NCBI GenBank assembly: GCA_000993685.1 | Contig: LBWP01000007.1 | Span: forward strand, 1 to 50,696 | From: Candidatus Woesebacteria bacterium GW2011_GWA1_39_21 | GTDB lineage: Bacteria; Patescibacteriota; Microgenomatia; UBA8517 | Direction of reading: 5' to 3' | Length of the DNA stretch: 50,696 nt | The notes under the pieces: generated by a model | Seen by the model: only the letters and a program-made list of their open reading frames with translations | Database searches by the model: none | Told to the model about the DNA's origin: nothing | Translations under genes and position numbers: made by a program | Shown here: in pieces, positions 7,161-50,122 of the stretch | Position numbering within the stretch: the first letter of the stretch is position 1 | Layout of the letters: each line of letters opens with the position of its first letter

Positions 7161-7218
7161 TCAGGTATGATGTAATTCTTGTACCACTGTCCAAGTGAAA
7201 TATGTTAATATCGAGAGT

Positions 7219-12951: not shown

Positions 12952-14312
12952 AAAAGATCGTTCAAAAACTACAGCAACATCGGGTGATAATTGTACTTCT
13001 TTTTGCGGCTCTGATTGTTAGATTTTATTTTTTAGACAAGTTTACAAATGTTAGTGGTGACCTTCTTTTGTACGCCGATTGGGGAAAAATGTATTGGGAA
13101 TACACCAGCCGGAATTTTTATTTTGTCAAAGACTGGTATTACGCACCACCAAATTATCCGCCGCTCGTAAATTTATACTACGCATATGCGTATAAGGCTT
13201 TTGACTACAAATACTTGTTTGCACAACTCCATAACATTATAAGATTTCCCCCGGCAGACTTTATCATTTACTACTACAAGTGGGGATATTTTATCAACCT
13301 GAAAATTTTAGCAATTGTATGTGATCTATTAACCGGCGTATTGCTTTATAACTTTGTTTATTCGACCTTGAAAAAGAAAAAAACGGCAGTCTTTACGGCT
13401 ATGTTGTATCTTTTCAATCCGGTAGTAATAACTTTAAGTTCGGTTTGGGGACAAACAGATAACGTTATCGCATATTTTTCCGTTGTCTCATTCATTCTAT
13501 TGTTCCGGAAAAAATTTGCACTGTCCTCACTTCTTTTTATGGCAGGACTTCTTTTTAAGCCGAACTGGGTTGTTTTCATTCCGCTGTACCTTTTGGCGTT
13601 TTTTCTGAATCGTCCAAGATTGAAGTCAATTCTTATCAGTTCTGTTTTTGTTTTACTACTACTTGCGGCAACAGCGTACCCCTTTTCGGAGAATCCGTTT
13701 ACTTTTTATCATTGGATAATTTCCGAAAGAATTATTCCAACAATCGGCGCTTCAAAGGTGGCGTCTGTATCGGCTTTTAATTTTTATACTATATTTTTGC
13801 GGATCGATTATCATCTGTCATCATTTAAGATATTGGTGGTTCCAGTCGGACTTTTTGGACAATTGATTTTTGCTGGAATCTATCTTGCAATCTTTTTAGG
13901 GGTTATCAATAAATTTCTTATACACAAGAAAGTTAGTGCTGTTGACTTCTTTAAAGCAATTCTGATCTTGGGATTGGGAAGCTTTTTATTTTTGCCAGGT
14001 ATTTTGGAACGCTATTTTTTCCCAGCGATTATTCCTTTTGCAGCTATAGCGGTTGTACGAAGAAAAACATTTATTATATATTTGCTTCTTTCACTTTCGT
14101 TCAGCCTCAACATTGTTTGGGCACTGTTTAGAAGACAGTACGGTGAATTGGATCATCTGTTCACCGATAGTAATTTCTTACTAATCAGAATTTTTTCACT
14201 TTTTAACGTTTTGGCATTCATCTTCCTTTTCGGATTATTATTTAAAGATAATCTGCTAAAATTAGATTTGTGGAAGAAACGGGCGAACACCTTGATCCAA
14301 CGGTTGAGGTAA
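12948..14312 (+). CDS. GT-C mannosyltransferase-like protein, Gpi18-related (COG5542 type)
   Basis: This 454-residue membrane protein has a first-loop acidic motif (SGDLLLYADWG, D38), then PPNYPPLVNLYYAY, a long loop, VCDLLTGVLLY, and YLFNPVVITLSSVWGQTDN, with LERYFFP late in the protein. Paralogues at 25481 and 29297 share the pattern YPPL, LFNPAVIY, WGQxDS and ERYLxP. This set of motifs resembles the bacterial group related to the eukaryotic Gpi18 mannosyltransferase. It probably uses a polyprenyl-phosphate sugar outside the membrane. A 4-base ATGA overlap joins it to the preceding gene. Confidence 0.7.
   Translation: MKKIVQKLQQHRVIIVLLFAALIVRFYFLDKFTNVSGDLLLYADWGKMYWEYTSRNFYFVKDWYYAPPNYPPLVNLYYAYAYKAFDYKYLFAQLHNIIRFPPADFIIYYYKWGYFINLKILAIVCDLLTGVLLYNFVYSTLKKKKTAVFTAMLYLFNPVVITLSSVWGQTDNVIAYFSVVSFILLFRKKFALSSLLFMAGLLFKPNWVVFIPLYLLAFFLNRPRLKSILISSVFVLLLLAATAYPFSENPFTFYHWIISERIIPTIGASKVASVSAFNFYTIFLRIDYHLSSFKILVVPVGLFGQLIFAGIYLAIFLGVINKFLIHKKVSAVDFFKAILILGLGSFLFLPGILERYFFPAIIPFAAIAVVRRKTFIIYLLLSLSFSLNIVWALFRRQYGELDHLFTDSNFLLIRIFSLFNVLAFIFLFGLLFKDNLLKLDLWKKRANTLIQRLR
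14254..14262 (+). promoter_or_regulatory. Extended -10 promoter for the flippase gene
   Basis: TGC-TAAAAT (hexamer 14257-14262) lies inside the 3' end of the preceding GT-C gene. Seven bases separate it from the GTG at 14270, so the transcript could begin at the start codon and be leaderless. There is no good -35, as expected for an extended -10. Confidence 0.4.
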
Positions 14313-15757
14313 ATCTGGATGTTATCAAAAAACGAGCGATTAAAGGAATCGCTGTACTTACCGGAAGAACTTTCTTATTAAACATTATCACCCTAGTTGC
14401 ACAGGGGCTCCTTTGGGCTTTTATCAGTCCAGCGGACTTCGGTGTTTTTATTCTTGTTTCGGCAACGATTAATTTTCTGTCTTATTTCGCTGACATTGGG
14501 CTGGGTGCCGCATTAATTCAGAAGAAAGAAAAACCACAAGAGCGTGATTTCAAGACAGTTTTTGCAGTTCAGGAAATACTTGTCGTAACAATTGTTTTGA
14601 TAGTTTTTTTGATAAGTCCTTTTTTAACGCGTGTAAACCATTTATCGAAAGAGGCCGTCTATTTGTTGTATGCCCTTAACATTTCTTTTTTTCTGGCATC
14701 TCTTAAAAACATTCCATCAATTATATTGGAGAGGAGGCTCAATTTCGCAAAATTCGTCATCCCCCAAGTTGTTGAGAACGTGACATATAACGCAATTTTG
14801 GTTTACCTTGCCTGGAGAGGTTTCGGTATTTCAAGTTTCACATATGCAGTCTTGGCTAGAGGGATTATTGGTGTAATTGCGATATACCTGATTCAACCTT
14901 GGAAGCCTGGTTTCCAAATTTCAAAAGAATCGTTGAAGGATTTGTTGAAATTTGGGATTCCGTACCAACTGAATAATTTTTTGGCGACAGTTAAGGACGA
15001 TGGCCTAACAATTGTTGTTGGCGGAATTTTAGGAACATATGGTTTGGGAATACTTGGTACGGCGCAGAAATTGGCGCAATATCCTCTACGTTTTTTTATG
15101 GATAATGTAACAAAAGTGACCTTCCCTGCATTTTCCAGAATGCAAGATGAAAGGGAGGCATTGACACGGTCTTTGAACCGCTCAATTTTGTTTATTGCGC
15201 TTTTGGTTTTTCCTAGTCTCGTTGGGTTGATTTCTCTTTTTCCAATGATTATCACAGTGGTTCCGAAGTATCAAAAATGGGCGCCTGCATTTATCCCCTT
15301 GATTTTTCTTGCAATTAATTCCTCCTTAGCTTCGGTAACTACTCAACTGACAAATTTATTAACTTCAGTTGGCAGAATAAAAACCACACTAAAACTTATG
15401 GTGATGTGGACCGCGCTTAGCTGGCTACTTTTGCCGCTACTTTCAAAAAGATGGGGTGTGGATGGAGCTGCCTTGGGTTATGCGATTGTTGGGTCGAGCT
15501 CGTTTATTGTTTTTTATTTGGTGAAACGGTTTTTAAACTGGTCTGTCTTTGACGCCGCTGGTAAGCCGCTAATTGCCTCCGTTGTAATGGGGATTTATTT
15601 ATATTTTTTGGGTAAACAAATTAGCGCAAATGTCTTTAATCTCGTTTTTCTTGTGGTGACGGGTGGTCTGCTTTACGCGTTAACGGCATATTTGCTTATT
15701 GGAAAATCTTTACTCGACGATGTTAAAAAAAGTATTCGGGCATTTATCGGAAAATAA
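14270..15757 (+). CDS. Wzx-type oligosaccharide flippase (polysaccharide transport family)
   Basis: A 495-residue protein with about twelve hydrophobic segments and the MOP/PST pattern: a cytoplasmic lead of 25-30 residues, then GRTFLLNIITLVAQGLLW, ISPADFGVFILVSATINF, and LGAALIQKK. It would flip lipid-linked oligosaccharides from the cytoplasmic to the outer face. The GTG start overlaps the previous gene by 43 bases and is supported by the extended -10 seven bases upstream. The neighbouring membrane gene at 15720 overlaps its end by 38 bases. Confidence 0.85.
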   Translation: MEETGEHLDPTVEVNLDVIKKRAIKGIAVLTGRTFLLNIITLVAQGLLWAFISPADFGVFILVSATINFLSYFADIGLGAALIQKKEKPQERDFKTVFAVQEILVVTIVLIVFLISPFLTRVNHLSKEAVYLLYALNISFFLASLKNIPSIILERRLNFAKFVIPQVVENVTYNAILVYLAWRGFGISSFTYAVLARGIIGVIAIYLIQPWKPGFQISKESLKDLLKFGIPYQLNNFLATVKDDGLTIVVGGILGTYGLGILGTAQKLAQYPLRFFMDNVTKVTFPAFSRMQDEREALTRSLNRSILFIALLVFPSLVGLISLFPMIITVVPKYQKWAPAFIPLIFLAINSSLASVTTQLTNLLTSVGRIKTTLKLMVMWTALSWLLLPLLSKRWGVDGAALGYAIVGSSSFIVFYLVKRFLNWSVFDAAGKPLIASVVMGIYLYFLGKQISANVFNLVFLVVTGGLLYALTAYLLIGKSLLDDVKKSIRAFIGK

Positions 15758-18343: not shown

Positions 18344-18367
18344 TAGCCCCTCGAATCAATAAATTAA

Positions 18368-24565: not shown

Positions 24566-24576
24566 ATGTTTTGCAG

Positions 24577-24582
24577 TACAAT
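24577..24582 (+). promoter_or_regulatory. Candidate -10 element before the GT2 at 24590
   Basis: TACAAT lies in the 24-bp gap after the methyltransferase gene, 7 nt before the GTG at 24590. This is the same spacing as at several other genes here. No clear -35. Confidence 0.35.
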
Positions 24583-24589
24583 GTAAACA

Positions 24590-25477
24590 GTGAAGTATAA
24601 AATATCGGTTGTCATCCCCAATTTTAACGGTTTAGATTTACTAGCGAAGAACCTTGTATCTGTTGTTACTAACACTTTATCTTATGACCCTGACGCTGAG
24701 GTTATTGTTGTTGACGATGCCTCTAAAGATGACAGTGTCAAGTATTTAAAAGAAAATTTCCCAAAAGTCATTGTATTAAAACATTTGAGAAACAGAGGAT
24801 TTTCAGCGACAGTCAATTCTGGGATAAAGATCGCGCGGGGAGATCTAATTGTACTTCTCAATAATGACGTTCTTCCTATAAATAATTATTTGCACTCTGT
24901 TGTTGATCACTTTAATGACGGTGAAGTGTTTGCAGTTTCGTTTCATGAAAAGGGATATGGTTGGGCAAAGGGATATTTTAAGGATGGATTTGTGCAACAC
25001 AGCGGCGGTGTTGAAAGCACAACTTCTCACAGAACTTTTTGGGTAAATGGCGGGTCTGGGATTTTCCGTGCATCGATGTTAAAAAAAATTCGGTATTTCG
25101 ACGAAGAGCTTTTTTCACCTTTTTATTGGGAGGATATTGATTTGTCATATCGCGGCGCAAAGCGTGGTTGGAAATTGATTTGGGAGCCGAAAAGTTGCGT
25201 TATTCATGAACATGAATCAACGATTAAAAAAATAAATCAAGGTAAAAAAGACTTGATAGTTCAGCGTAATCAACTTTTATTTATCTGGAAAAATATAACA
25301 TCACGTACAATGATAGTAAGACATCTAAAAGGATTAATGTTAAGATTGTCGCGACATCCGGGGTACATTAGAATAATTTTTGCCGCTTTGTTAAAATTAG
25401 AAATTTGTTTAAGAAAAAGGGAGATTGAAATTAAGGAATCAAAAATTTGCGATGAGATTTTATTATCTGAATATTAA
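24590..25477 (+). CDS. GT2 glycosyltransferase, rhamnosyltransferase-like
   Basis: A 295-residue family 2 enzyme: ISVVIPNFNGLDLL, VIVVDDASKDDS, NRGFSATVNSGI, NND (91-93), GGSGIFRASML and YWEDIDLSYR. The NND and EDxD motifs place it near the gene at 18368. It begins with GTG, supported by a TACAAT hexamer seven bases upstream. The C-terminal region has basic amphipathic helices. It would add a sugar to a cytoplasmic lipid-linked chain. A 3-base gap separates it from the next gene. Confidence 0.8.
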   Translation: MKYKISVVIPNFNGLDLLAKNLVSVVTNTLSYDPDAEVIVVDDASKDDSVKYLKENFPKVIVLKHLRNRGFSATVNSGIKIARGDLIVLLNNDVLPINNYLHSVVDHFNDGEVFAVSFHEKGYGWAKGYFKDGFVQHSGGVESTTSHRTFWVNGGSGIFRASMLKKIRYFDEELFSPFYWEDIDLSYRGAKRGWKLIWEPKSCVIHEHESTIKKINQGKKDLIVQRNQLLFIWKNITSRTMIVRHLKGLMLRLSRHPGYIRIIFAALLKLEICLRKREIEIKESKICDEILLSEY

Positions 25478-25480
25478 TTT

Positions 25481-26752
25481 ATGTCTGGCTGGATTCGGAG
25501 ATTTATTTCCGAACAAAAATTTCCATCAATTATATTTTTTGCGTTAATAATACGTCTTCTTTTATTGCCTTTTTCTTTCCATAGCGATTTAAACAACCAT
25601 GCTTTTTGGGGAATTTTCGGATACGAGTTTGGTTTTAGGGGTTTTTACGATTGGCTTAATTTCGGTGTCTATGCCAGGCCTGACTACCCGCCACTGGCGA
25701 TGATTCTTTTTAGTGGTATAAGAATGGTTTGGTTCTGGCTAAATAAAGCTGTTTGGTTTTTGAATGTCAGCTTTCCCATTTTCCCGTCAAATTTTGTTCC
25801 CTGGTTTGAGACAAAAGGATATCTGAGCATGTTGAAACTGCCAGGAATTTTTGGGGATTTGGGTATCGGTTATCTTATTTTTAACTTTTTGAAGACGAAA
25901 GGTCGCAAAAAAGCCCTTTTATATTCATCACTTTATCTTTTCAATCCTGCTGTGATTTATTTGTCTGCTTGTTGGGGACAGATAGATTCATTTGTTGCAT
26001 TTTTTTCTGTTTTGGCAATTGTTTTAGTTTTACAAAACAATTACTTTAGGGTACTTAGTCTGTACTTTATTTCGGTAATGACGAAAGCAACTTGGGTTCC
26101 GGCAACTTTGGTGCTTTTAATCCACTACGTCAAAGACAGACCAGGTATGAAGAAAACTATTTTATTAACAATTCTTTTAGCATTTTATCTTTCTATCTTA
26201 GGGTTTATCTTTTTTAACTCAAATTTTATTTTTTGGACAACTAATCTGTATTTTTCAAAAATCATCAAAGGAGCCGTCACTCTTCCATATATTACAATTA
26301 ACGCGTTCAACTATTGGAGTGCGATTTTGGGAATGGATAAGATTCTCGATAACAAAGTTTTTTTCAACTTGACCTTAAATCTCTGGGCATGGCTGTTAGC
26401 GGGAGCTTTTATTTTATTGATAGCATATTACCATTTGAAGGCGAAAGACATCTTCTTTACCCTGGGAATGATATTTTTTGCATTTTTTATGTTTGCGCCC
26501 AGGATTCACGAGCGATATTTATTTCCACTTTTAGTGCTCCTGCCATTTGTTGTTTCAAAGTATAAAAACATGACAAAATATTATCTCATCCTTTCTGTGG
26601 TATTTATGTTGAATCTGTATCATTGGTGGTGGTACCCTCACATTACCTTTGCCGAAAAACTGGTTGATCTTGAAATAGTTGAAAGAAGTTTATCCTTGGT
26701 CAATTTGAGTGTATTTTTCCTAATGTTGAGAAATTATATATTATTAAAGTGA
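25481..26752 (+). CDS. GT-C mannosyltransferase-like protein, Gpi18-related
   Basis: A 423-residue membrane protein and paralogue of 12948 and 29297. The first loop reads HSDLNNHAFWG (D36), followed by ARPDYPPLAMILF, FPIFPSNFVPWFETKGYLSMLKLPGIFGDLGIGYLIF, LFNPAVIYLSACWGQIDS and HERYLFP. The acidic first loop and WGQxDS are the most constant sites and probably form the active centre. It would work on the outer face with a polyprenyl-phosphate sugar. It overlaps the next gene by four bases (GTGA). Confidence 0.75.
   Translation: MSGWIRRFISEQKFPSIIFFALIIRLLLLPFSFHSDLNNHAFWGIFGYEFGFRGFYDWLNFGVYARPDYPPLAMILFSGIRMVWFWLNKAVWFLNVSFPIFPSNFVPWFETKGYLSMLKLPGIFGDLGIGYLIFNFLKTKGRKKALLYSSLYLFNPAVIYLSACWGQIDSFVAFFSVLAIVLVLQNNYFRVLSLYFISVMTKATWVPATLVLLIHYVKDRPGMKKTILLTILLAFYLSILGFIFFNSNFIFWTTNLYFSKIIKGAVTLPYITINAFNYWSAILGMDKILDNKVFFNLTLNLWAWLLAGAFILLIAYYHLKAKDIFFTLGMIFFAFFMFAPRIHERYLFPLLVLLPFVVSKYKNMTKYYLILSVVFMLNLYHWWWYPHITFAEKLVDLEIVERSLSLVNLSVFFLMLRNYILLK
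26737..26742 (+). promoter_or_regulatory. Weak candidate -10 before the GT2 at 26749
   Basis: TATATT lies 6 nt before the GTG at 26749, inside the end of the upstream gene. The region is AT-rich, so this could be chance. It would favour the GTG over the ATG at 26755. Confidence 0.2.
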
Positions 26753-27570
26753 TCATGGATATTTCAGTAATTATCGTTAACTACAAAACAAAAAAGGAAA
26801 CTCTCGACGCGGTCAATTCATGTCTTACCAACACCTCAAGACTTAAGAAAGAAATTATTGTTGTCGACAATGGATCTGCTGACGGATCCTATGCTTATTT
26901 ATCAAAGAAATTAAAAAATAAGCCATCTGTGGTTTTGATAAAGGGCAAGATGAATTTGGGTTTTGCTAAGGCGGTCAATCTGGCCCTCAAGCGTTCAAAA
27001 GGCGAATATAGGCTGCTACTAAATTCCGATACCCGAGTAACAAATAACTGTTTTAAAAGATTGATTGATTTTGCAGAAACGGATAAAACAATCGGCGTTA
27101 TTGGAACAAAGCTGATTTTACCCAACGGTTCTATTCAAGATTCATGTTTTAATTTTCCAGGAATTGTCAATGCTTTGAAAGAATACTGGTTTGGTCTGAA
27201 AGGCAGTTATTCGCCATTTTATAAAAATCGAACATCGCAAGTAGATGCAGTTGTTGGTGCATCGTTTTTGATTACACCAAAAGCATTTCAGAAAGTCGGT
27301 TTGTTTGATGAGCGCTATTTTATGTACTTTGAAGATATCGATTATTGCAGGCGAGTCAAAAAGGCAGGATTAAAAGTCATCTATTACCCTGAGGTTGAGA
27401 TATTCCATTATCATGGATTAAGTGGAAAGGGCTTGACCGAAGCGTCTACACAATGGAGGAGACTTATTCCATCAAGCGTTATCTATCACGGAAGAATTCG
27501 ATATGAGATTATTAATTTTATATTATGGTCGGGACAACTCTGGAAACGTATAATAAAAAGTAAGATATGA
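26749..27570 (+). CDS. GT2 glycosyltransferase, rhamnosyltransferase-like
   Basis: A 273-residue enzyme with DISVIIVNYKTKKETLDAV, IIVVDNGSADGS, NLGFAKAVNLAL, NSDT (92-95), GASFLITPKAF and YFEDIDYCRRV, the full signature of the rhamnosyltransferase-like branch. It lies between a Gpi18-like and an ArnT-like GT-C gene with 4-base overlaps on both sides, so it is part of one transcription unit. Either the GTG at 26749 or the ATG at 26755 could be the start; they differ by two residues. The sugar is not known. Confidence 0.8.
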   Translation: MIMDISVIIVNYKTKKETLDAVNSCLTNTSRLKKEIIVVDNGSADGSYAYLSKKLKNKPSVVLIKGKMNLGFAKAVNLALKRSKGEYRLLLNSDTRVTNNCFKRLIDFAETDKTIGVIGTKLILPNGSIQDSCFNFPGIVNALKEYWFGLKGSYSPFYKNRTSQVDAVVGASFLITPKAFQKVGLFDERYFMYFEDIDYCRRVKKAGLKVIYYPEVEIFHYHGLSGKGLTEASTQWRRLIPSSVIYHGRIRYEIINFILWSGQLWKRIIKSKI

Positions 27571-29300: not shown

Positions 29301-30553
29301 TAAAACGGTTCAGATTGATAATTTTAGCAGCGCTCATACTTCGCATATTTTTGTCATTTTTGACGTGGCATCCGGATGTGAACAACCATGTCGATTGGGG
29401 AATTAGATTTTGGCAATATGGAGCGAAAGATTATTATTCCGCAAACGTCTGGAGCTACACTTGGCCAAATCAACCCCCAGGGACGATTTACATTTATGCA
29501 GGGATAACAAAGTTGTATGATTTTGTTTTCTCAATTTTTTGGTGGATAAATTTGAAGATTCCCCTGTTTCCTTCGGATGTAATCTTTTATTTGGAAAGCA
29601 ATTTATATCCTGCGCTTTTGAAATTGCCTTCTATGCTTGCCGATTTAGGAATTGCGTATTTGATATACAAAAGTGTCGCCGACAAAAAGATTGCGAGGTT
29701 TGGGGTAGTGCTTTGGCTTGTAAACCCAATCGTTTGGTATAACTCATCTTTGTGGGGGCAAACAGACTCGCTAATAGCGTTTTTTGTTTTCTTGGCGTTT
29801 TATCTTTTAAAGAAAAACAAACCCGAGCTTTCTCTTTTATCCTACGCACTTTCGGTTTATATCAAAGTCTCACTGTTAATTTTTATACCAATCTATGTAT
29901 ATTTATTCATTAAAGAGAAATATAAACCGACAATTTATGTAAAGTCGGTAATTTTAGTGCTTTTGGTAGTTGTAGGTTTAACGGTCCCGTTTGCAAAGGG
30001 TAATCCTTTGGTGTGGCTGTATGACTTGTACCAAAACAAAATTTTTGCACAACAACTTCAAGTAATTACGGCAAACGCCTTTAACATTTGGACTACGATT
30101 GCCTCGATTCATGAAAAACCACAAACGTTGTATCTTGGACCGTTAACTTACCGAATGTGGGGAACTCTTTCGTTTATCCTCTCGTATCTTGTACTCATTT
30201 TCTTTTTCATCAAATCAAAGGCCAAAGACGTTTATTTCACCCTTTCATTAATTGCGTTTTCTTCATTCATGCTGATGACGAACATGCATGAGCGCTATCT
30301 TTATCCGTTTTTCCCCTTTTTTACAGCGGTGACGGTTTCAAACAAGAAATTGTTAAAAGTCTATATTATTGTTTCGATAATTTCGCTTTTGAACCTTTAT
30401 AATTTTTGGTGGTATCCGAAAATTTCTTTTATTGTTGGCTTTTTGTCATTCTCCGATCGGCTTATGCCGCGAATATTGGGTTTCGTGATGTTTTTAATTT
30501 ACCTTTATTTATTCAAACTTTTTCTTCGACAAACACGAACCTCCAAGATATAA
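29297..30553 (+). CDS. GT-C mannosyltransferase-like protein, Gpi18-related
   Basis: A 418-residue paralogue of 12948 and 25481, with HPDVNNHVDWG (D27), WPNQPPGTIYIYAG (where the others have YPPL), LPSMLADLGIAYLIY, LVNPIVWYNSSLWGQTDS and HERYLYP. It sits between the first and second ArnT-like copies, which breaks the tandem run and suggests that gene blocks rather than single genes were copied. ATGA overlap with the previous gene; nine bases to the next, which has its own promoter. Confidence 0.75.
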   Translation: MIKRFRLIILAALILRIFLSFLTWHPDVNNHVDWGIRFWQYGAKDYYSANVWSYTWPNQPPGTIYIYAGITKLYDFVFSIFWWINLKIPLFPSDVIFYLESNLYPALLKLPSMLADLGIAYLIYKSVADKKIARFGVVLWLVNPIVWYNSSLWGQTDSLIAFFVFLAFYLLKKNKPELSLLSYALSVYIKVSLLIFIPIYVYLFIKEKYKPTIYVKSVILVLLVVVGLTVPFAKGNPLVWLYDLYQNKIFAQQLQVITANAFNIWTTIASIHEKPQTLYLGPLTYRMWGTLSFILSYLVLIFFFIKSKAKDVYFTLSLIAFSSFMLMTNMHERYLYPFFPFFTAVTVSNKKLLKVYIIVSIISLLNLYNFWWYPKISFIVGFLSFSDRLMPRILGFVMFLIYLYLFKLFLRQTRTSKI

Positions 30554-30554
30554 T
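30526..30554 (+). promoter_or_regulatory. Sigma70-type promoter before the ArnT-like run
   Basis: TCGACA (30526-30531, five of six to TTGACA), a 17-bp spacer and a perfect TATAAT (30549-30554). The ATG follows after seven bases, so the transcript would start at or within a base or two of the start codon. This is the best promoter seen in the window and would drive the five ArnT-like genes that follow. Confidence 0.6.
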
Positions 30555-30561
30555 TAATTAA

Positions 30562-32241
30562 ATGAAAAAGCTGTTGTTGCTTATTCTAACTGTTGCATTC
30601 TTGTTGAGGGCAGTCGGATTGAACTCTTACCCACCTGGTTTTACACCTGATGAGGCGTCGTTTGGCTATGATGCCTATTCAATTTTGGAAACAGGTAGAG
30701 ATCAATGGGGAAAATCGTTTCCATTAACCCTGCAATCTTTTGGTGACTACAAATCACCACTTTACAGCTATGTTGCCATTCCTTTTGTTGCTGTATTTGG
30801 ACTTGAGAAGTATTCCGTGCGTTTGGCAAACGCCGTTGTTGGGACTCTTGCAGTTTATCTGACGTATCTTCTTGCATACGAGCTTTTTAACAATCGTCTT
30901 ATCTTTAAAACAAAAGTTGATCCAGAAATTGGTGCAATAATCGCATCGTTTCTACTTGCGATCTCCCCCTGGCACGTGATGATGAGTCGTGGAGCCTTTG
31001 AGGCAAATTTAACGACTTTGCTTATGCCGGCAGCATTATATTTTTTTGTCAAAGGTGTAGAACGTCCTAAATATTTTATTTATTGTGCTTTTGCAATTGG
31101 TTTAAATGTGTTCTCCTACCATTCCGCCAAATTTGTAACACCGATACTTTTTCTTACACTTTTCGTACTCTTTCGTAAAGAACTTACAAAAAAATTTGGA
31201 ATTCATCATAAGATAAGTCTTTTTATCTTGCTTGTTTTTGCAGGACTTTTTTTGTTAAGTATGCGAAGTGGCTCCGCAACGAGAGTTTTTGATGTCAGCA
31301 TTTTTAAAACCGCCCTTGTAGAAGCATCGTCGCAAAGATCGGCTGCGATAAACCAAGGAGCAAATTCATATTTATCAAGGGTAATTTACAACAAGTACAT
31401 TGTTGGTGTAAGGCATTTTTTTGCAAATTACACCACCTATTTCTCACCACAGTTTTATTTTTCGCAGGGACCGGCCGAGACAACATACGGCATGATTCCA
31501 GGAAGGGGAGTTTTGTATTGGTTCGAACTACCGCTTTTGCTTGCTGGATTTGTATATTTTTTGAAAAATTATGCAAATAAGTTTAGCTGGCTGGTCGTTA
31601 TCTGGTATCTTGTTGGACCTATCCCAGCGGCACTTTCGCTTGGGCCGGGATACGCAGCGAACAGAGCGGAGGTCGTCCTCCCGTCAATACAGATAATCTG
31701 TGCGGTCGGTGTTGTTTTCCTGTCACATTTAAACTTCAGATTTAGAAAACAGTTTGTTTATGCAAGTGGCAGCGCAGTAGTTGCCATTTTTTTCTTCTAT
31801 TTCCTTTTTGATTACTTTGTTTCCTCGCCGCAAAAGATGTCTGAAGGAATGCTGTACGGAAATTATGAAGCTGCAAAATATTTGTCGTTTGGTTATTCGC
31901 AGGATCAGATAGTTATGAGTAGAAAGTTGTCGGAGCCGCATATTTATGTTGCTTTCGTAAATAGATGGGATCCTGCAAATTATCAGAAAGTTACTAAAGC
32001 TTGGAATTACAAACAAATCGGCTTGGGATGGGTTGATCAAATGCCTGAGTATAGTTTGGGAAATTATACTTTTAAAAATATCAATTATCAGGAGTATGCA
32101 GATAAACGTGTTATCTTGGTAGGGAAACCTGACGAGTTTCCACAGAGTCTGTCTTTGAGTAAGGTGTTTTCGTATCCCGGTGGTAAGCAGTCGGTTGTAG
32201 TAGTTGATACGTCTAGTCAAATATATGCTTGGAAAAATTAA
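30562..32241 (+). CDS. ArnT/PMT-like GT-C glycosyltransferase, tandem copy 2
   Basis: A 559-residue paralogue. FTPDEASFGYDAYSI (D30, E31), SFGDYKSPLYSY, then AISPWHVMMSRGAFEAN; the C-terminal domain has YGNYEAAKYLSFG and QIVMSRKLSEPHIYVAFVNRWDP. Segment order and spacing match copies 3-6. A clear promoter lies just upstream, so it may begin a new transcript. It overlaps the next copy by 17 bases. Confidence 0.8.
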   Translation: MKKLLLLILTVAFLLRAVGLNSYPPGFTPDEASFGYDAYSILETGRDQWGKSFPLTLQSFGDYKSPLYSYVAIPFVAVFGLEKYSVRLANAVVGTLAVYLTYLLAYELFNNRLIFKTKVDPEIGAIIASFLLAISPWHVMMSRGAFEANLTTLLMPAALYFFVKGVERPKYFIYCAFAIGLNVFSYHSAKFVTPILFLTLFVLFRKELTKKFGIHHKISLFILLVFAGLFLLSMRSGSATRVFDVSIFKTALVEASSQRSAAINQGANSYLSRVIYNKYIVGVRHFFANYTTYFSPQFYFSQGPAETTYGMIPGRGVLYWFELPLLLAGFVYFLKNYANKFSWLVVIWYLVGPIPAALSLGPGYAANRAEVVLPSIQIICAVGVVFLSHLNFRFRKQFVYASGSAVVAIFFFYFLFDYFVSSPQKMSEGMLYGNYEAAKYLSFGYSQDQIVMSRKLSEPHIYVAFVNRWDPANYQKVTKAWNYKQIGLGWVDQMPEYSLGNYTFKNINYQEYADKRVILVGKPDEFPQSLSLSKVFSYPGGKQSVVVVDTSSQIYAWKN

Positions 32242-37308: not shown

Positions 37309-37309
37309 T

Positions 37310-38965: not shown

Positions 38966-38981
38966 CCTGCGTCAAAACCTC

Positions 38982-41438: not shown

Positions 41439-41453
41439 TGTTTGTAGCTTTAG

Positions 41454-41462
41454 TGGTAAGAT
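41454..41462 (+). promoter_or_regulatory. Extended -10 promoter for the FAD oxidoreductase
   Basis: TGG-TAAGAT (hexamer 41457-41462) lies seven bases before the ATG at 41470. It follows the hairpin at 41407-41434, so termination and restart may be paired here. Confidence 0.4.
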
Positions 41463-41469
41463 TATGAGT

Positions 41470-42750
41470 ATGAAAGTTGCGATTATCGGTGCAGGATTTG
41501 GTGGTTTGGCAACTGCATATTTTTTGTCAAAACAAGGGGTGAATGTAGTTGTTTTTGAATCCGGAAATAAACCAGGTGGTTTGGCAGTTGGTTTTAAGAA
41601 AAGTGCGTGGAAGTGGAGTTTGGAAGAACATTATCATCACATTTTTACAACTGACTCATATATTCTAAACTTGGCAAGAGAGGTTGATCAGAAGATGATT
41701 TTTAGTTCTCCCAAAGCCTCAACTTTTTTTGAAGATGGAACTTACCAAGTTGATTCGCCTTTAACGCTTCTTAAATTTTCGAAATTGTCACTTTTTGATA
41801 GGTTGAGAACTGGGGCGGTGATTGCTTTTCTTAAACTAAACCCTTTCTGGAGACCACTGGAAAGATTGACTGCCGAAAAATTTATCAAATATACGATGGG
41901 GAATGTTTCGTGGAATATTTTATGGCGACCTCTGTTTTTGAAAAAATTTGGGGTATTTGAAAAAGAGGTTAACGCCGCGTGGTTTTGGGCAAGGATAAAA
42001 AAAAGAACGATGAAACTAGGTTACCCCGCCGGGGGGTTTTTAGAATTTGCAAAAAAGATAGAGAAGAAAATTGTCTCGAGAGGTGGAAAAATAATTTACA
42101 AAACAGAAGTAACTTTAATTGAACAAGAAGGTGGTAAATTTATTATTCATGCAAAAGACAAAAAAGACACTTTTGACAAAGTGGTTTGTACTCTTTCGGC
42201 CAAGCAGTTTGCCAGTATTGTCAAGGGTTTACCCAAAGAATATCTGAACAAAATTTCAGGATTCAAAGGTTTGGGTACAATAAATTTGGTACTTCTACTT
42301 AAAAATAATTTTTTGGATGATGGTAGTTATTGGTTAAATGTAAATGAAGTTAGCTATCCATTTTTAGCTGTGATTGAACACACCAACTTTATTGATAAGT
42401 CAGAATATAACAATAGCCATTTGCTTTACGTTGCAAATTATTTGTTGCCGAGCCATAAATATTTTGAACTGACAAAAAAGCAGCTTTTTGACCTTTATTT
42501 CCCGTATCTTAAGAAAATTTCCAGCCGGTTCTCGAAAAATGACGTAAAAGAAATTTTTGTTTTTAAGTCAAGGTTTACCCAGCCGGTAGTTTTTCAAAAT
42601 CATTCGCAAAGGGTTCCGTCGTTTACAACTGCCTTGGAAGATTTATATCTTTGTAATATGCAACAGGTTTATCCATGGGACAGAGGCACAAACTATGCAG
42701 TCGAAAATGCACAAAAGGTTTCGGATTTGGTGTTAAAATCAAAACAATAA
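41470..42750 (+). CDS. FAD-dependent oxidoreductase (amine oxidase / UDP-galactopyranose mutase-like superfamily)
   Basis: A 426-residue soluble flavoprotein. The N-terminal FAD site is KVAIIGAGFGGLATAYFL (GAGFGG at 7-12), followed by VVVFESGNKPGGLAVGF, the second FAD motif. The middle has WRPLFLKKFG and YPAGGFLEFAKKIEKKIVSRGGKI, known from phytoene desaturase and protoporphyrinogen oxidase-like proteins. Enzymes of this type in glycan clusters may act on sugars or on isoprenoid lipids; I cannot tell which. The ATG at 41470 matches the family start (MKVAIIGAG) and fits the -10 spacing better than the ATG at 41464. Confidence 0.75.
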   Translation: MKVAIIGAGFGGLATAYFLSKQGVNVVVFESGNKPGGLAVGFKKSAWKWSLEEHYHHIFTTDSYILNLAREVDQKMIFSSPKASTFFEDGTYQVDSPLTLLKFSKLSLFDRLRTGAVIAFLKLNPFWRPLERLTAEKFIKYTMGNVSWNILWRPLFLKKFGVFEKEVNAAWFWARIKKRTMKLGYPAGGFLEFAKKIEKKIVSRGGKIIYKTEVTLIEQEGGKFIIHAKDKKDTFDKVVCTLSAKQFASIVKGLPKEYLNKISGFKGLGTINLVLLLKNNFLDDGSYWLNVNEVSYPFLAVIEHTNFIDKSEYNNSHLLYVANYLLPSHKYFELTKKQLFDLYFPYLKKISSRFSKNDVKEIFVFKSRFTQPVVFQNHSQRVPSFTTALEDLYLCNMQQVYPWDRGTNYAVENAQKVSDLVLKSKQ

Positions 42751-42755
42751 TTACC

Positions 42756-43685: not shown

Positions 43686-43691
43686 GACAAT
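43664..43691 (+). promoter_or_regulatory. Candidate promoter for the aminotransferase gene
   Basis: TTGGCA (43664-43669, five of six to TTGACA), a 16-bp spacer and GACAAT (43686-43691, four of six), then six bases to the ATG at 43698. The -10 is weak, but the spacing matches the other promoter candidates here. Confidence 0.35.
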
Positions 43692-43697
43692 ACCTAT

Positions 43698-44675
43698 ATG
43701 GCTGATAAAATAATTAATCTTCAATATACAACGATAAAGGATCCTTTGCCAGATTTTATATACAAAAATTTAGAAAAATATTCACAGGAGGCAAACAGCT
43801 ATCATCCACAACCTTTGGAATTGATTGAAAGACTTGCCGAGAGACATCAAGTACCAAAGGAGATGGTTTATGTAACAGCAGGCTGTGACGAGGCTATACA
43901 AATGTTTATTCATGCATTTGGAGAAAGAACCTATACATTTACTCCGACATATATTGTTTATTCCGACGCCAAGGAGTTTGGCAACAAATTTACGGAACTA
44001 TATAGTTTGAATAATAATAAATTTGATATCTCGACAGAAAAAATTAAAAATGCGACACTCATATTTTTAGCAAATCCAAATAATCCTTCGGGTTTTACTG
44101 AGAAGTGTAAAGTTATGGAATTAATCGAAAACAATACCCACGCAAAAGTAATAATTGATGAAGCCTATGGGGATTTTGCAGAACTTTCAGTAATTGATCA
44201 AGTTATCAAGTATTCCAATATGGCAGTTTTGAGGAGTTTCTCAAAGGGTTTCGGGATGGCAGGCAACAGGATAGGTTATATTATTGCAAACCCGGAAGTT
44301 TTAAGTGTAGTAAAAAATAAAGCTCAATGGTCAAATGTCTCATATTTGTCTATCGGCGCAGCAATTATTGCTTTAGAGAATGAAAAATATTTTGAGAATA
44401 TGAGATCCGGGATTGCAGAAGTCCGAGATGATATTATGGATTTTTTAAGAAGTAATGGTTATGACTTCTTGCCGTCAAAAATAAATGCAGTAGTAATTAA
44501 ATTTGCTAATGAAATGAAGGGTACGATATTTTTTAACTATCTGAAAGATAACGGTATTGTTGCCAGTCATGGAAATGGGTTTAGCAATATTGGTCTTGAT
44601 AAATCATTTGTGAGAATAGCCGTTGGAAATAAAAACCAGATGAAAAAGTTTAAGGAATCATTGCAAAAATTATGA
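43698..44675 (+). CDS. PLP-dependent class I/II aminotransferase, HisC-like
   Basis: A 325-residue fold type I enzyme near histidinol-phosphate aminotransferase. Visible are SYHPQPLELIERLAE, VTAGCDEAI, NPNNPSG (126-132), D154 and Y157 in IIDEAYGDF, the PLP lysine K183 in RSFSKGFGMAGNRIGY and R191. It is a little shorter than usual HisC. No histidine operon genes are present; beside a 2-hydroxyacid dehydrogenase and inside a glycan cluster it more likely makes an amino acid-like or amino-sugar decoration. The pair is visibly more AT-rich than its neighbours. Confidence 0.8.
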   Translation: MADKIINLQYTTIKDPLPDFIYKNLEKYSQEANSYHPQPLELIERLAERHQVPKEMVYVTAGCDEAIQMFIHAFGERTYTFTPTYIVYSDAKEFGNKFTELYSLNNNKFDISTEKIKNATLIFLANPNNPSGFTEKCKVMELIENNTHAKVIIDEAYGDFAELSVIDQVIKYSNMAVLRSFSKGFGMAGNRIGYIIANPEVLSVVKNKAQWSNVSYLSIGAAIIALENEKYFENMRSGIAEVRDDIMDFLRSNGYDFLPSKINAVVIKFANEMKGTIFFNYLKDNGIVASHGNGFSNIGLDKSFVRIAVGNKNQMKKFKESLQKL

Positions 44676-44676
44676 T

Positions 44677-45639
44677 ATGTTGAATGCTCTATTTACAGAA
44701 TGTTTCCTCTCCAAGTCAGACGTTAGAAAATTAGGTAGACATGGTGTGAAAATTATAGAAGCTTCAGGGAATTTAGATGAATCTGAAATAATAAAAAAAT
44801 TAAAAGATATTGATATATATATTATTGGAGGTACAGATAAGGCTACAGAGAATGTTATTAAAAATACAAATCTGAAATTAATTATATTTTATGGGACCGG
44901 GTATGAAAACCATATTGACATAAACGCAGCTTCTCATAAAGGTATTCAAGCGGCTAACACCCCAAAGGCAAATGCATATACTGTTGCTGAGCATTGTGTG
45001 GCACTAATTTTGGATGCGGTGAAGCAAATTACATATTTAAATAATTCTTCCAAGTTAGGAATTTGGCGCCAACGAGAAGCGTGGAATTTAGAAAATAAGA
45101 CTTTAGGTATTGTAGGAATGGGAACTATTGGCGGATGTGTCGCGCGAATTATGAAAAATGGTTTTGGGATGAAAGTGATTTATAACAATCGTGGTAAGAG
45201 GGAAGATTTAGAAAAACAACTAGACGCTCACAAAGTTGATCTTCAAACTTTGTTAAAAACTTCAGATGTTGTAAGCGTTAATGCTTCTTACAGCGATGAA
45301 AGTGTGGAAATATTGAATGCTAATAATTTGGGTCTTGTTAAAAAGGGTGCAGTGTTGGTTTGTACCTCAAGAGCGGAGCTGATTGACCCCAGGGCTTTGA
45401 AAAAGGCATTAACACGGGGCAATTTATCCTGTGCGGCTTTTGATTCTTATTACAAAGAACCCCTTCCTTCGAAAAATGATGATAAATGGGGGTTACTTTC
45501 ATTCCCCGATAATAAGTTTATTATCACACCTCACACTGCTTACGGATCTAGAGAGGCGATTGAAAATATGAATCGGATGGTAATTGATAATTTAATTAGT
45601 TTCATTAAGACAGGTCAGCCGAAATATAAAGTTACTTAA
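44677..45639 (+). CDS. D-2-hydroxyacid dehydrogenase (NAD-dependent, SerA/LdhA superfamily)
   Basis: A 320-residue enzyme. The NAD-binding motif is GIVGMGTIGG (GMGTIG at 147-152), and the catalytic triad is visible as R232 (CTSRAELID), E261 (KEP) and H286 (TPHTAY). It interconverts 2-oxo acids and D-2-hydroxy acids. Its ATG follows the aminotransferase stop after one base, so the two are surely co-expressed and could act in sequence: oxidation of a hydroxy acid to an oxo acid, then transamination (as SerA and SerC do), or the reverse. The actual substrate is unknown. Confidence 0.85.
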   Translation: MLNALFTECFLSKSDVRKLGRHGVKIIEASGNLDESEIIKKLKDIDIYIIGGTDKATENVIKNTNLKLIIFYGTGYENHIDINAASHKGIQAANTPKANAYTVAEHCVALILDAVKQITYLNNSSKLGIWRQREAWNLENKTLGIVGMGTIGGCVARIMKNGFGMKVIYNNRGKREDLEKQLDAHKVDLQTLLKTSDVVSVNASYSDESVEILNANNLGLVKKGAVLVCTSRAELIDPRALKKALTRGNLSCAAFDSYYKEPLPSKNDDKWGLLSFPDNKFIITPHTAYGSREAIENMNRMVIDNLISFIKTGQPKYKVT

Positions 45640-45665
45640 TGTTTTAGGGTAATAATAATTGTTAC

Positions 45666-45674
45666 TGTTATAAT
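45666..45674 (+). promoter_or_regulatory. Extended -10 promoter for the SDR gene
   Basis: TGT-TATAAT (hexamer 45669-45674), a full consensus extended -10, lies six bases before the ATG at 45681. No Shine-Dalgarno site lies between, so the mRNA would start at the start codon. Confidence 0.5.
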
Positions 45675-45680
45675 TGAATT

Positions 45681-46427
45681 ATGGATCTTTCAGGGAAAAC
45701 AGTTTGCATAATTGGAGCGACGGGTGGAATCGGCAGGGAAGTTGCGCGTGTCATGGCGAAGCGCAAGGCAAATCTAATTTTTGTTTCTAGAAAGATGAAC
45801 TCAATGGATGTTTTGGAAAATGAATTGAAGGAAGAAAACATCAAGATTGGTAAGTACACGTGCGATTTAACTGATCCGAAGTCTATAGAAAAATTGGCGA
45901 AAGAAATTTCAAGAGATTACAAATCTGTCGATGTACTTTTCCACCTAGCTGGTGTGGGAATATATAAAAAATTATCTGAAATAAGTTTTGAAGAATGGGA
46001 GATGTCGATGGATATAAATGTTGCTTCAGCTTTTTATTCCATCCAGAAACTTTTACCGCTTCTGGAAAAATCTGAGAAAGTTTATGTTATTGCAAGTGGA
46101 TCTGGAATGGGTAAGGTTGCCCTTTCGGGGCGTCTGGCATATTGTGCGAGTAAATTTGCGCTTCGAGGTTTAATGCTCTCGCTGGCTAAAGAATACAGAA
46201 AAACACATATTCACTTTGTCCATCTGACATTAGGTTCTGTGCTAACATCATTCGGACCGCTCTCCCTCGCCCGCAAAATAAGAAAACACAGAGAGGGTAA
46301 GGGATATCTGGATCCGGGATGGCTGGCAAACCATATCGCTACAAGACTTGAAAACGAATCACTGGAAGAAGAAACTCCAATTTATCCACGACACTATTTT
46401 TCTGAAAGTAAAAAGGACATCAGGTGA
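45681..46427 (+). CDS. Short-chain dehydrogenase/reductase (SDR)
   Basis: A 248-residue classical SDR: cofactor loop GATGGIG (12-18), CDLTDP, N113, serine in VIASGSG (139-141), and the catalytic pair Y154 and K158 in YCASK. The usual NNAG is replaced by HLAG. The basic residue in VSRK after strand 2 suggests NADP(H). It could reduce a keto-sugar or a lipid; the substrate is unknown. It has its own extended -10 and is followed 23 bases later by a GT4 gene, also with a -10. Confidence 0.8.
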   Translation: MDLSGKTVCIIGATGGIGREVARVMAKRKANLIFVSRKMNSMDVLENELKEENIKIGKYTCDLTDPKSIEKLAKEISRDYKSVDVLFHLAGVGIYKKLSEISFEEWEMSMDINVASAFYSIQKLLPLLEKSEKVYVIASGSGMGKVALSGRLAYCASKFALRGLMLSLAKEYRKTHIHFVHLTLGSVLTSFGPLSLARKIRKHREGKGYLDPGWLANHIATRLENESLEEETPIYPRHYFSESKKDIR

Positions 46428-46438
46428 TGTTTTTGGTG

Positions 46439-46444
46439 TAAAAT
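46439..46444 (+). promoter_or_regulatory. Candidate -10 element before the GT4 at 46451
   Basis: TAAAAT lies six bases before the ATG at 46451, in the short gap after the SDR gene. No clear -35. Confidence 0.35.
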
Positions 46445-46450
46445 ATCTTC

Positions 46451-47569
46451 ATGAGGGTGGCAATTGATAGTGGTCCTCTGACAGGTGGGCATTCTGTGCG
46501 TGGTGTGGGTGTTTCGGTTAGGGGGTTGATCGACGCGCTTCATAAATTTAACACCGACAAGAATGTGGTTGTCGAAGCGGTGGATTTTTTCCAAGCTGAT
46601 TTAAATGACTTTGATATCCTTCACTATACCAGCTTCAATCCTTACTTTTTAAATATACCGCGTATTGGGTTTGCTGGTAAAAAAGTGATCCTCACAATTC
46701 ACGATCTGATTCCTCTACTTTATAGAAACCATTATCGCCAAGGAATTAGAGGTGCAGTTAAATTTCTTATAAATAAATTGCTTGTTGGCCAGGTAGACAA
46801 AGTAATTAGTGTATCTGAAACATCAAAAAAGGACATTGTTAGATTTTTGGGTATTAATGAAAAAAAGGTTGAAGTTATCTACTGGGGGGTGGACTTGCGC
46901 TTTCGAAAAATTAACGATAAGGAAAAACTGGCAAAAGTAGCAAAGGTCTATAGATTACCAAATAAGTTTATTCTCTATGTGGGTGATGTTAACTACAACA
47001 AAAATCTTTCAACACTGGTGGAGGCAAGCAGAATTGTAAAGTTGCCATTGGTAATTGTAGGAAAACAAGCGGCAGCAATTGATGAGCTGATAAAAAACAA
47101 TCTCTCACGCCAGAGCGGATTTAGAGACAAAGCTAGAGAAATTTTAGGGATAACACATCCTGAAATCGCGCATTTGACTGAACTTTTGTACCGCATAAAC
47201 TCCAATCGGGTATTAACAACGGGTTTTGTTCCTGCGAACGACTTGGTTGCGATTATGAATTTGGCTAGTGTCTATTGCCAGCCTTCATACTACGAGGGCT
47301 TTGGTTTGCCTGTTTTAGAAGCATTCGCTTGCGAAACCCCGGTTGTAATTTCAAAAACTCAGGCCCTTGTCGAGATTGCGGGTGGATCCGCGGCTGTTGC
47401 AAAACCAAACTCAGCTGGCGATTTTGCTAATAAAATTTCCTTTTCACTGAAGGATTCTTCTGACAGGCTACGAATGATTAGGGCTGGGAGTAAAAGGGTG
47501 AAACAGTTTACGTGGCGAGAAACGGCTGAAAAAACGGTCAAGTTGTACAAAAGCTTATCAGAGATTTAA
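46451..47569 (+). CDS. GT4 family glycosyltransferase (mannosyltransferase-like)
   Basis: A 372-residue GT-B enzyme. The N-terminal domain has GVGVSVRGLIDAL and LTIHDLIPLLY (H84, D85). The C-terminal domain has FILYVGDVNYNKNLSTLVEA (K184 region) and YYEGFGLPVLEAFACETPVV with the ExxxxxxxE pair E282 and E290. The SVSETSKKDI and VIYWGVD motifs are usual for mannosyltransferases in O-antigen clusters. It acts on the cytoplasmic side. The ATG follows a TAAAAT hexamer by six bases. Confidence 0.85.
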   Translation: MRVAIDSGPLTGGHSVRGVGVSVRGLIDALHKFNTDKNVVVEAVDFFQADLNDFDILHYTSFNPYFLNIPRIGFAGKKVILTIHDLIPLLYRNHYRQGIRGAVKFLINKLLVGQVDKVISVSETSKKDIVRFLGINEKKVEVIYWGVDLRFRKINDKEKLAKVAKVYRLPNKFILYVGDVNYNKNLSTLVEASRIVKLPLVIVGKQAAAIDELIKNNLSRQSGFRDKAREILGITHPEIAHLTELLYRINSNRVLTTGFVPANDLVAIMNLASVYCQPSYYEGFGLPVLEAFACETPVVISKTQALVEIAGGSAAVAKPNSAGDFANKISFSLKDSSDRLRMIRAGSKRVKQFTWRETAEKTVKLYKSLSEI

Positions 47570-47589
47570 GCTGTAGTGATGAATGTATA

Positions 47590-48738
47590 ATGAACAAAAA
47601 GGAAATAACTACGATCATAACCCTGTTTATTGTCTGGAAACTTGTTGAACTATCCTTTGCAAGTTTAGGCAAATTGTTGTTCCCCCTACAAACTGATTTT
47701 TTAGGAGGAGGACTTCTGAATTATCTGCGCCAGCCATTTTTTTGGAGTGCGATTAATTTTGACGGCGAACACTACCTTGCAATTGCAAGGGAAGGGTACC
47801 TACCACTGACTTATTTTTATTTTCCTCTATACCCACTGATAATCAGATCTTTTTCTCTGGCAATTGGAGGGAGTTATATTTCTTACGCCGTCTCAGGACT
47901 TTTTATATCAAATATTTTACTTCTTGTTGGTCTTTTCGGGCTGTATAAATTGGGACAAATGTTTTTTGACACTAGACAAGTGATGTTATCGATTGTGTTA
48001 ATACTCGTTTTTCCGACAGCGTTTTTTTTAGGAGCTTATTATAATGAAACACTATTTTTTGCATTGGCTGTTTGGAGTTTCTATTTCTCTTTAAAAAGAC
48101 GTTGGTTATTTTCATTTGCATTGTGTGGGATGGCAACGGCCACCAGGCTTGTTGGCGTTGCTCTGGCAATATCTCTGATATATGAATATCTGATCGAAAA
48201 CAAAAAGAAAATTATAACTTTGACGTCGTTTTTATATTCCGCTCTGCCGGTATTGGGAATAGTTTGTTATTCTACGTATCTGCAAATTTCAACCGGGGAT
48301 TTTCTTGCCTTTATTCACAACATTGAAATTTTTGGAGGTCAACGGACATCAAAAATTGTTTTACTGCCACAGGTTTTTTATCGTTATTTTTTTAAGATCA
48401 TCCCCGCGGTTAATTATTCTTATTTTCCACAGGTTTATGTAACATTTTTAGAATTGGCGGTGGCGTTATTGTTTTTGCTTGCAGGTTACTTTGTTTACAA
48501 AAAAATGAAGATGAGTTTTTTTATTTTCTACATACTTGCGTATTTAATCCCAACATTCTCGGGCAGTTTTTCGTCGCTGCCGCGTTATGTCTTAGTCATT
48601 TTTCCAGTTTTTCTTGTTGCTGGATATTACATCTCGATGGTTAGAAATAATTCTATTCGCTATCTAATTTTTTCGTTATTATTATTAAGTAATTTCCTAG
48701 CGCAAGCGTTATTTGTTAGGGGGTATTTTGTGTCATAG
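47590..48738 (+). CDS. GT-C mannosyltransferase-like protein, PIG-V/Gpi18 type
   Basis: A 382-residue membrane protein. The first outer loop has NFDGEHYLAIAREGY (D58), where PIG-V-type enzymes keep the catalytic Asp, then YFPLYPLIIR, ATATRLVGVAL and SSLPRYVLVIFPVF. These are the PIG-V/Gpi18 signatures, in bacteria linked to transfer of mannose-like sugars from polyprenyl phosphate outside the membrane. It differs from the other three Gpi18-related proteins here (no WGQxDS). It starts 20 bases after the GT4 gene. Confidence 0.8.
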   Translation: MNKKEITTIITLFIVWKLVELSFASLGKLLFPLQTDFLGGGLLNYLRQPFFWSAINFDGEHYLAIAREGYLPLTYFYFPLYPLIIRSFSLAIGGSYISYAVSGLFISNILLLVGLFGLYKLGQMFFDTRQVMLSIVLILVFPTAFFLGAYYNETLFFALAVWSFYFSLKRRWLFSFALCGMATATRLVGVALAISLIYEYLIENKKKIITLTSFLYSALPVLGIVCYSTYLQISTGDFLAFIHNIEIFGGQRTSKIVLLPQVFYRYFFKIIPAVNYSYFPQVYVTFLELAVALLFLLAGYFVYKKMKMSFFIFYILAYLIPTFSGSFSSLPRYVLVIFPVFLVAGYYISMVRNNSIRYLIFSLLLLSNFLAQALFVRGYFVS

Positions 48739-48904
48739 CGATTTTTAAAAAAAACGATATATAAATTTTATTGAATTCATCTGCGAAAACCACGGACTTA
48801 AGTCCGTGGATGAAGCAAGAATCCAATCTTGTCGACAAAATACCATGAGCTTTAGCCCGTGGTAGTTTATTTCTATAGCAATTTCTAAAAAAATAGATAT
48901 ATCA
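48735..48904. mobile_element. IS200/IS605-like hairpin element (copy C) flanked by imperfect direct repeats
   Basis: The left hairpin is a perfect 20-nt palindrome, CCACGGACTTAAGTCCGTGG (48790-48809), inside a 42-nt unit shared with 6686-6727. A second, imperfect hairpin with loop TTTA lies at 48843-48862, followed by GGTAGTTTATT as in copy B2. The outer edges carry a direct repeat: 48735-48762 and 48875-48902 agree at about 24 of 28 positions. No open frame of note lies inside. This is the whole gap before the second flippase. Confidence 0.5.
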
Positions 48905-48949
48905 TTATCCTTTCGGGGAAGCTACTGGCTAATGTTTGTAAAGAATGTT

Positions 48950-50122
48950 ATGAAAGAGAAAATAATAAATGCCAACGTCAAGATCTTAAATCATTCGTTT
49001 TCGCCTAAAAAAATTTTTCTCCATCCGCTTTTTTCTGGAAGTTTTTTTATGGTAGTTGGTAGTAACCTGGCCAATTTTTTGGCTTATATCTATCACTTGA
49101 TTTTAGGACGTTTGTTGGGCCCCGACTCCTACGGAGAGCTGGTCGCGACAATTTCGCTTATTGGTCTTATCATGTCGCTGGTATCTTTTTTTGGACTTGT
49201 GATTGTTAAATTTGTTTCTTCTTCTGACAAAAAAGATACTCCGGCGATACTGGAATGGTTTAATAATAAAGTTATAAAAGTTTCCCTTGGCGTGTCTGTA
49301 GTAATTTTATTAATTTCATCTTTTTTGGGAGATTACATACACATTGGGAAAAATATTAGCCTTCTTTTTGCCCCAATTTTATTTTTTTCAATGATTATCT
49401 TTGTTTATAAATCTCTTCTTCAGGGTGTAGTTAAATTTAAAGAAACGGTGATTATTGGCAACATTGAACTGCTTGGTAGGTTGGCGTTTGGTTTAGCTCT
49501 CTACTACTTAGGTTTCGGAGTTTTTGGGGCTATTTTGGGTATGCTTCTTGCTGAAGTAGTTGCACTTGTTCTTTCAAGATTTTTTTTACGCGATATTGGT
49601 TTTGTTAAGAGTGAGGTCAAAAATTTCAATTTTCAGAAAGTATTTTCCTATGCGTTACCCGTTTTTGTGGTTTCTGTTTCATTCACTTCCCTTTTGACTT
49701 CGGATTTAGTTTTGGTCAAACATTTTTTCTCTTCACACGATGCAGGGATCTATGGATCAATTTCGAATTTGGGAAAAGTAATATTTTACGGAACGGCACC
49801 AATCGGGGCAGTGATGTTTCCACTGATTGCAAAGAAAAAATCGACAAATAGCTCCTATCTCGAAGGAGGTAGGTATCTGCTTTTAATGGGACTTTACTTT
49901 GTTATTTACTCACTTGCCAATCTTTTTTCCTCTTTTATGTTATCGATCGACCTAACACGGCCTCTGTTATTGGTTCCTGTGTTTGCCATTATGCAAGTGT
50001 TGATGATCTATCTTTTTCATTCATCTTTTTGGTATGTCATCGGTTCATCGCTTCTGTGTATTTCTTTATTAGTGATTTACTTGGGGCTATACTTTGCATA
50101 TGTTAAGAAAAAAACGTTCTGA
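48950..50122 (+). CDS. Wzx-type oligosaccharide flippase, second copy
   Basis: A 390-residue protein with about 10-12 hydrophobic segments and the PST/MOP opening GSNLANFLAYIYHLILGRLLGPDSYGELVATISLIGL. It is shorter than the flippase at 14270 and not closely similar, so the two probably carry different lipid-linked glycans. The ATG at 48950 was preferred, but 48932 (six residues more) is possible. Its end overlaps the next GT2 by 23 bases. Confidence 0.8.
   Translation: MKEKIINANVKILNHSFSPKKIFLHPLFSGSFFMVVGSNLANFLAYIYHLILGRLLGPDSYGELVATISLIGLIMSLVSFFGLVIVKFVSSSDKKDTPAILEWFNNKVIKVSLGVSVVILLISSFLGDYIHIGKNISLLFAPILFFSMIIFVYKSLLQGVVKFKETVIIGNIELLGRLAFGLALYYLGFGVFGAILGMLLAEVVALVLSRFFLRDIGFVKSEVKNFNFQKVFSYALPVFVVSVSFTSLLTSDLVLVKHFFSSHDAGIYGSISNLGKVIFYGTAPIGAVMFPLIAKKKSTNSSYLEGGRYLLLMGLYFVIYSLANLFSSFMLSIDLTRPLLLVPVFAIMQVLMIYLFHSSFWYVIGSSLLCISLLVIYLGLYFAYVKKKTF
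50088..50093 (+). promoter_or_regulatory. Candidate -10 element before the terminal GT2
   Basis: TATACT lies inside the end of the flippase gene, six bases before the ATG at 50100. No clear -35. Confidence 0.3.

Follow-up and report, generated by a model that had tools for sequence, protein, structure and literature searches.

TATAAT-like hexamers placed a few nucleotides before start codons in the genome of Candidatus Woesebacteria bacterium GW2011_GWA1_39_21 are very probably housekeeping sigma-70-type promoters that start transcription at the start codon itself or no more than about 3 nt away, giving leaderless mRNAs; a leader of 1–3 nt is indistinguishable from none by this analysis. An earlier note on the window, the 50,696-nucleotide contig C7 analysed here, had described ten such hexamers and read them as leaderless promoters inside a gene cluster. 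All ten hexamers are present and the pattern is real, but it extends over the whole genome and lineage and is not peculiar to the cluster. The leaderless reading itself is supported by the locked position of the box, its −35 element and extended −10 TG, its scarcity within operons, its bias towards ATG, the near exclusivity of box and Shine-Dalgarno (SD) sequence, and conservation between species. The genome comprises 1.04 Mb in 30 contigs with a GC content of 39%, and its rpoC matches that of Ca. Woesebacteria GW2011_GWA1_38_8 at 84% and those of other Microgenomates mostly at 55–73%. The window carries a long surface-glycan cluster, mainly on the plus strand, with PMT_2, GT2, GT4, YfhO, Wzx-like, SDR and aminotransferase genes.

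Genome-wide counts were made on 819 of the 1044 kb, sampled as stretches in which 744 genes were called; gene starts are the longest-ORF starts of our own gene caller, and some are therefore wrong. In this sample TATAAT ended 6–8 nt before ATG 32 times, where 3.6 occurrences were expected (p = 6e-20), and this combination ranked first among about 213,000 hexamer-by-position tests covering exhaustively all hexamers at all positions. The counts of TATAAT before ATG at spacings from 0 to 14 nt were 2, 0, 1, 0, 0, 3, 15, 9, 13, 9, 3, 3, 2, 2 and 7, a peak at 6–9 nt with a sharp onset, and the hexamer is rare at the same distance before internal in-frame ATGs. The comparison by distance with shuffled background that the earlier note had proposed as a check shows this peak to exceed by far what dinucleotide shuffles of that upstream sequence produce: 12 occurrences were seen against 1.1 for divergent genes, 18 against 1.5 for genes with a gap above 60 nt and 11 against 0.8 for gaps of 16–60 nt. 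For divergent genes and genes at least 16 nt from their upstream neighbour the excess is thus about 11- to 14-fold, and the box also stands above a control set of coding decoys. The other top hexamer signals were TTTTGT at 12–14 nt, which fits a part of an extended −10, and the SD hexamers GAGGTG/GGAGGT, found in 5–6 genes only. An unconstrained EM motif search returned a T-rich low-complexity motif and was dropped for the exhaustive hexamer-position test and a box-scoring model, started from TATAAT and trained on genes outside the window, with scores in bits. A control at distant spacings was added, and a control read backwards was judged insufficient alone.

The position of the box also bears on the length of the leader. 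Boxes at spacings of 10–15 nt somewhat exceed background (e.g. 13 at spacing 14), as expected if the promoters are real but mostly drive mRNAs with short leaders of 4–20 nt and truly leaderless ones are a minority; the modelled mode at 6–9 nt, the 77% of modelled weight held by these spacings and the few counts at 1–5 nt speak against this explanation, which we consider improbable. Leaderless transcription is the preferred reading, and it concerns a substantial part of the genes with room for a promoter, defined as divergent genes and genes with a gap above 60 or of 16–60 nt, as opposed to those with a gap of at most 15 nt or overlapping the upstream gene. The EM fraction assigned a box to 44% of ATG genes with such room, using the model trained outside the window, and simple counting found 98 of 368 (27%), where distant positions predict 17.5. 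Between about a quarter and two fifths of the genes with promoter room are boxed; in about half of them, or more, no box can be recognised at these spacings. The box preceded 120 of 367 ATG starts (33%), 5 of 47 GTG starts (11%) and 6 of 84 TTG starts (7%).

The surroundings of the box have the anatomy of a sigma-70 promoter. A −35 match of at least 4/6 lies 16–18 bp from 37 of 95 boxes, compared with 7–15 at other spacings, and 28 of the 95 carry the TG of an extended −10, compared with 8%. This anatomy is hard to reconcile with the view that TATAAT is an AT-rich, unstructured translation-initiation signal of the non-SD kind known from Bacteroidetes, the transcripts being leadered. Such a signal would agree with the near absence of SD usage and with A-rich sequence before starts in every gene class, but what is enriched here is a specific hexamer and not AT-richness. 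Moreover, tightly coupled genes with a gap of at most 15 nt require translation but no promoter of their own. A translation signal is thus expected in operon-internal genes too, as in the Bacteroidetes type, whereas the TATAAT box occurs in only 3 of 175 genes with a gap of at most 15 nt, compared with 41 of 367 genes with room. A translation signal is therefore very unlikely to explain the box.

As promoters, the boxes show a small excess over shuffles even among genes that overlap or lie at most 15 nt from the upstream gene (3 against 0.7 for TATAAT and 15 against 7.2 at 2 bits). At 5 bits, four of 227 such genes carry a box against 0.6 expected from shuffles, and the window genes starting at 14270 and 30562 are at that level; the gene at 50100, truncated by the contig end and outside the 227-gene count, also reaches it. 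Internal promoters within overlapping genes, as the earlier note had suggested, thus hold for a few sites and fail as a general rule.

SD sequences precede 2 of 131 boxed genes and 21 of 367 others (p = 0.05). They are barely above control in every gene class of the genome, and the whole-genome AGGAG ratio is 1.12. The 16S rRNA of family relatives, used because the 3′ end of the genome's own 16S is missing at a contig end, retains the anti-SD GGATCACCTCC, and the genome encodes bS21 and an S1-like protein. SD use persists in a small number of genes, as seen for fusA (L014:8728) with a strong GGAGG. Operon-internal genes with gaps of at most 15 nt have neither −10 nor SD; their sequence between about −11 and −2 is rich in A, and translational coupling or an A-rich site is possible. 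Across 108 genomes the −10 excess and the SD excess were uncorrelated (rho −0.03), which argues against a phylum-wide trade-off in which leaderless expression replaces SD. In a genome of another class of the phylum (G126, L247–L256) SD use is strong and the box peaks sharply at exactly 6 nt, which shows that the two modes can coexist.

Conservation was assessed with a same-genus genome of a sister species (G001), whose proteins show a median identity of 66% to those of the window's genome. A box at 6–9 nt was kept in 18 of 29 boxed genes compared with 9 of 137 unboxed ones (odds ratio 23, p = 1.5e-10). In these orthologue pairs the flanks have diverged around the retained hexamer and the spacing shifts between 6 and 9 nt. 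The association was also found with the genome G009 (p = 4.5e-4) and was not significant with G008, where numbers are small.

Eight of the ten window sites described in the earlier note hold, with scores of 3.0–7.1 bits in the model trained outside the window, and six of them (7155 on the minus strand, 14257, 24577, 41457, 45669 and 46439) have a box at the same place in orthologues. On the minus strand, TACAAT (7155–7160; 6.7 bits) lies 8 nt before the ATG at 7146 of the gene 6655–7146, and the sister-species orthologue has TATAAT at 8 nt. In the same divergent pair (7146–7219), a weaker plus-strand TAATAT lies 7 nt before an ATG at 7219, in a gene listed from the GTG at 7195; the two are possibly overlapping leaderless promoters. 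The remaining sites are on the plus strand. TAAAAT (14257–14262; 5.1 bits), extended by TGC, lies 7 nt before the GTG at 14270 of the Wzx-like flippase and inside the 3′ end of the gene 12948–14312. The sister species has the same box, spacing and GTG (74% identity), but this conservation is confounded because the box overlaps the coding sequence for LLKLxLWKK of the upstream gene, which is conserved in both species. TACAAT (24577–24582; 3.6 bits) lies 7 nt before the GTG at 24590 of a GT2 gene, whose sister-species orthologue (59% identity) has TACAAT 7 nt before an ATG. TATAAT (30549–30554; 5.5 bits), 7 nt before the ATG at 30562 of a PMT_2 glycosyltransferase gene, overlaps the end of the upstream gene (30553) and is preceded at 17 bp by the putative −35 element TCGACA (30526–30531).

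TAAGAT (41457–41462; 3.0 bits), extended by TGG, is a supported box in front of an FAD amine-oxidase-like gene, but its 7-nt spacing is to the second in-frame ATG at 41470 and not to the longest-ORF ATG at 41464. TATAAT (45669–45674), extended by TGT and 6 nt before the ATG at 45681 of an SDR gene, has at 7.1 bits one of the best scores of the genome and is kept in several family orthologues. TAAAAT (46439–46444; 3.3 bits) lies 6 nt before the ATG at 46451 of a GT4 gene. For this gene 7 of 11 orthologues (39–59% identity) have TAAAAT or TATAAT at 6–8 nt, and for the amine-oxidase-like gene a minority of 5 of about 20 have TACAAT or TAGAAT at 5–9 nt; these orthologue counts rest on whichever of a few neighbouring candidate starts fitted best and are non-independent, and are thus supportive rather than exact. 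TATACT (50088–50093; 5.3 bits) lies 6 nt before the ATG at 50100 of the GT2 gene that runs off the contig and inside the gene 48932–50122.

Two proposed sites score at background. GACAAT (43686–43691; 1.0 bits) before the ATG at 43698 lacks a box in the closer orthologue, and TATATT (26737–26742; 0.9 bits) before the GTG at 26749, which had been listed as possible, is not supported; the true start there is likely the ATG at 26755. These two may be chance matches, and weak hexamers allowed among 40 genes produce several of them, but chance in an AT-rich genome with selective picking of fitting hexamers is scarcely credible as a general explanation, as shuffles, distant-spacing controls, coding decoys and interspecies conservation refute it genome-wide and at most of the listed sites.

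The start-adjacent box is found well beyond this genome. An annotation-free test comparing TATAAT at 6–9 and at 26–29 nt before any ATG was significant in 30 of 116 Patescibacteria genomes, from 21 families. The eight genomes of its class, including the one studied here, gave ratios of 1.6–3.8, and several other families were near 1. Among named genomes the ratios were 1.7–3.1 for Woesebacteria, 2.7 for Collierbacteria, 2.7 for Levyibacteriota, 2.3 for Shapirobacteria, 3.4 for Kazan and 3.9 for a Parcubacterium; a SAR202 genome showed no peak in this test (0.92). The same gene-level pipeline as used here found 55 boxes near starts against 15 in the distant control for G001, 25 against 6.5 for G008 and 39 against 5.5 for G009 outside 72 kb that read as N, and a Microgenomates pool gave 37 against 5. 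Applied to 150 kb of an annotated E. coli record, it found no box either near starts or at distant positions and a clear SD peak.

We propose that RNA polymerase recognises TATAAT, often aided by the extended −10 TG and a weak −35 element 16–18 bp upstream. The sigma-70 holoenzyme would open the DNA at the box and start on the A of the ATG, producing an mRNA that has no leader and whose 5′-terminal AUG the ribosome would bind without SD pairing. The predicted transcription starts and 5′ ends are well supported, though indirectly, by sequence and conservation, and translation from a 5′-AUG is presumed from established knowledge of leaderless mRNAs elsewhere. Leaderless promoters would then be a main expression mode of the genome and of its lineage, the Microgenomates, and several genes of the glycan cluster would have their own promoters, a few of them inside or overlapping the upstream gene. 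A broader proposal, for which we see the balance as even, is that in Microgenomates, and in parts of other lineages of the Candidate Phyla Radiation (CPR), genes that have a promoter of their own are by default transcribed into leaderless mRNA, and that SD use is almost gone in this genus despite the anti-SD of its relatives, bS21 and the S1-like protein.

Start-adjacent −10 boxes with leaderless expression are of a known kind. In Deinococcus-Thermus, a −10 element lying a few bp ahead of ORFs serves as the promoter of leaderless mRNAs, expression is higher with a −35 at about 17 bp, and about 30% of ORFs have an adjacent −10 (PMC12340547). The start-adjacent −10, the −35 and a share of ORFs of similar order recur here; in contrast to that system, the box is TATAAT-like, the genome has 39% GC, the lineage is unrelated, the remaining genes hardly use SD, and the arrangement is predicted from sequence. 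The same kind of signal appears in a survey of TA-like signals in Actinobacteria, Deinococcus-Thermus, Aquificae and others, where a hexamer about 10 bp before the start was read as leaderless and medium-GC genomes show TATAAT; the parts of that survey consulted name no CPR phylum (PMC3160421). Mycobacterium tuberculosis likewise has extensive leaderless transcripts beside leadered genes, with 5′ ends that were mapped there and are predicted here (PMC3898074). About one in five bacterial species is predicted to have leaderless transcription (PMC9581028), and a paper of 2025 reported that CPR keep YchF, a promoter of leaderless translation (PMC12641178). The genome studied here has a YchF/Ola1-like gene (C1:5721–6830, L009), recognised by eye from its N-terminus only, with a strong TATAAT box (6.7 bits) 9 nt upstream of its start. 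A search of the open PMC literature found no description of leaderless genes in CPR; the lineage would be new to this kind of expression.

CPR bacteria, most of which are uncultured, account for a very large part of bacterial diversity. Should many of their genes prove leaderless, the −10 box could be used as a landmark for annotating start codons. The tuf gene (L014:11012) is a case in which the box could correct the annotation: its longest-ORF TTG start looks wrong, and an ATG downstream at about 11042 has TATACT 9 nt before it. Expression work in these bacteria would then need promoters that start on the AUG and not ribosome-binding sites, and the CPR would make it possible to test how ribosomes whose anti-SD is intact cope with hardly any SD sites.
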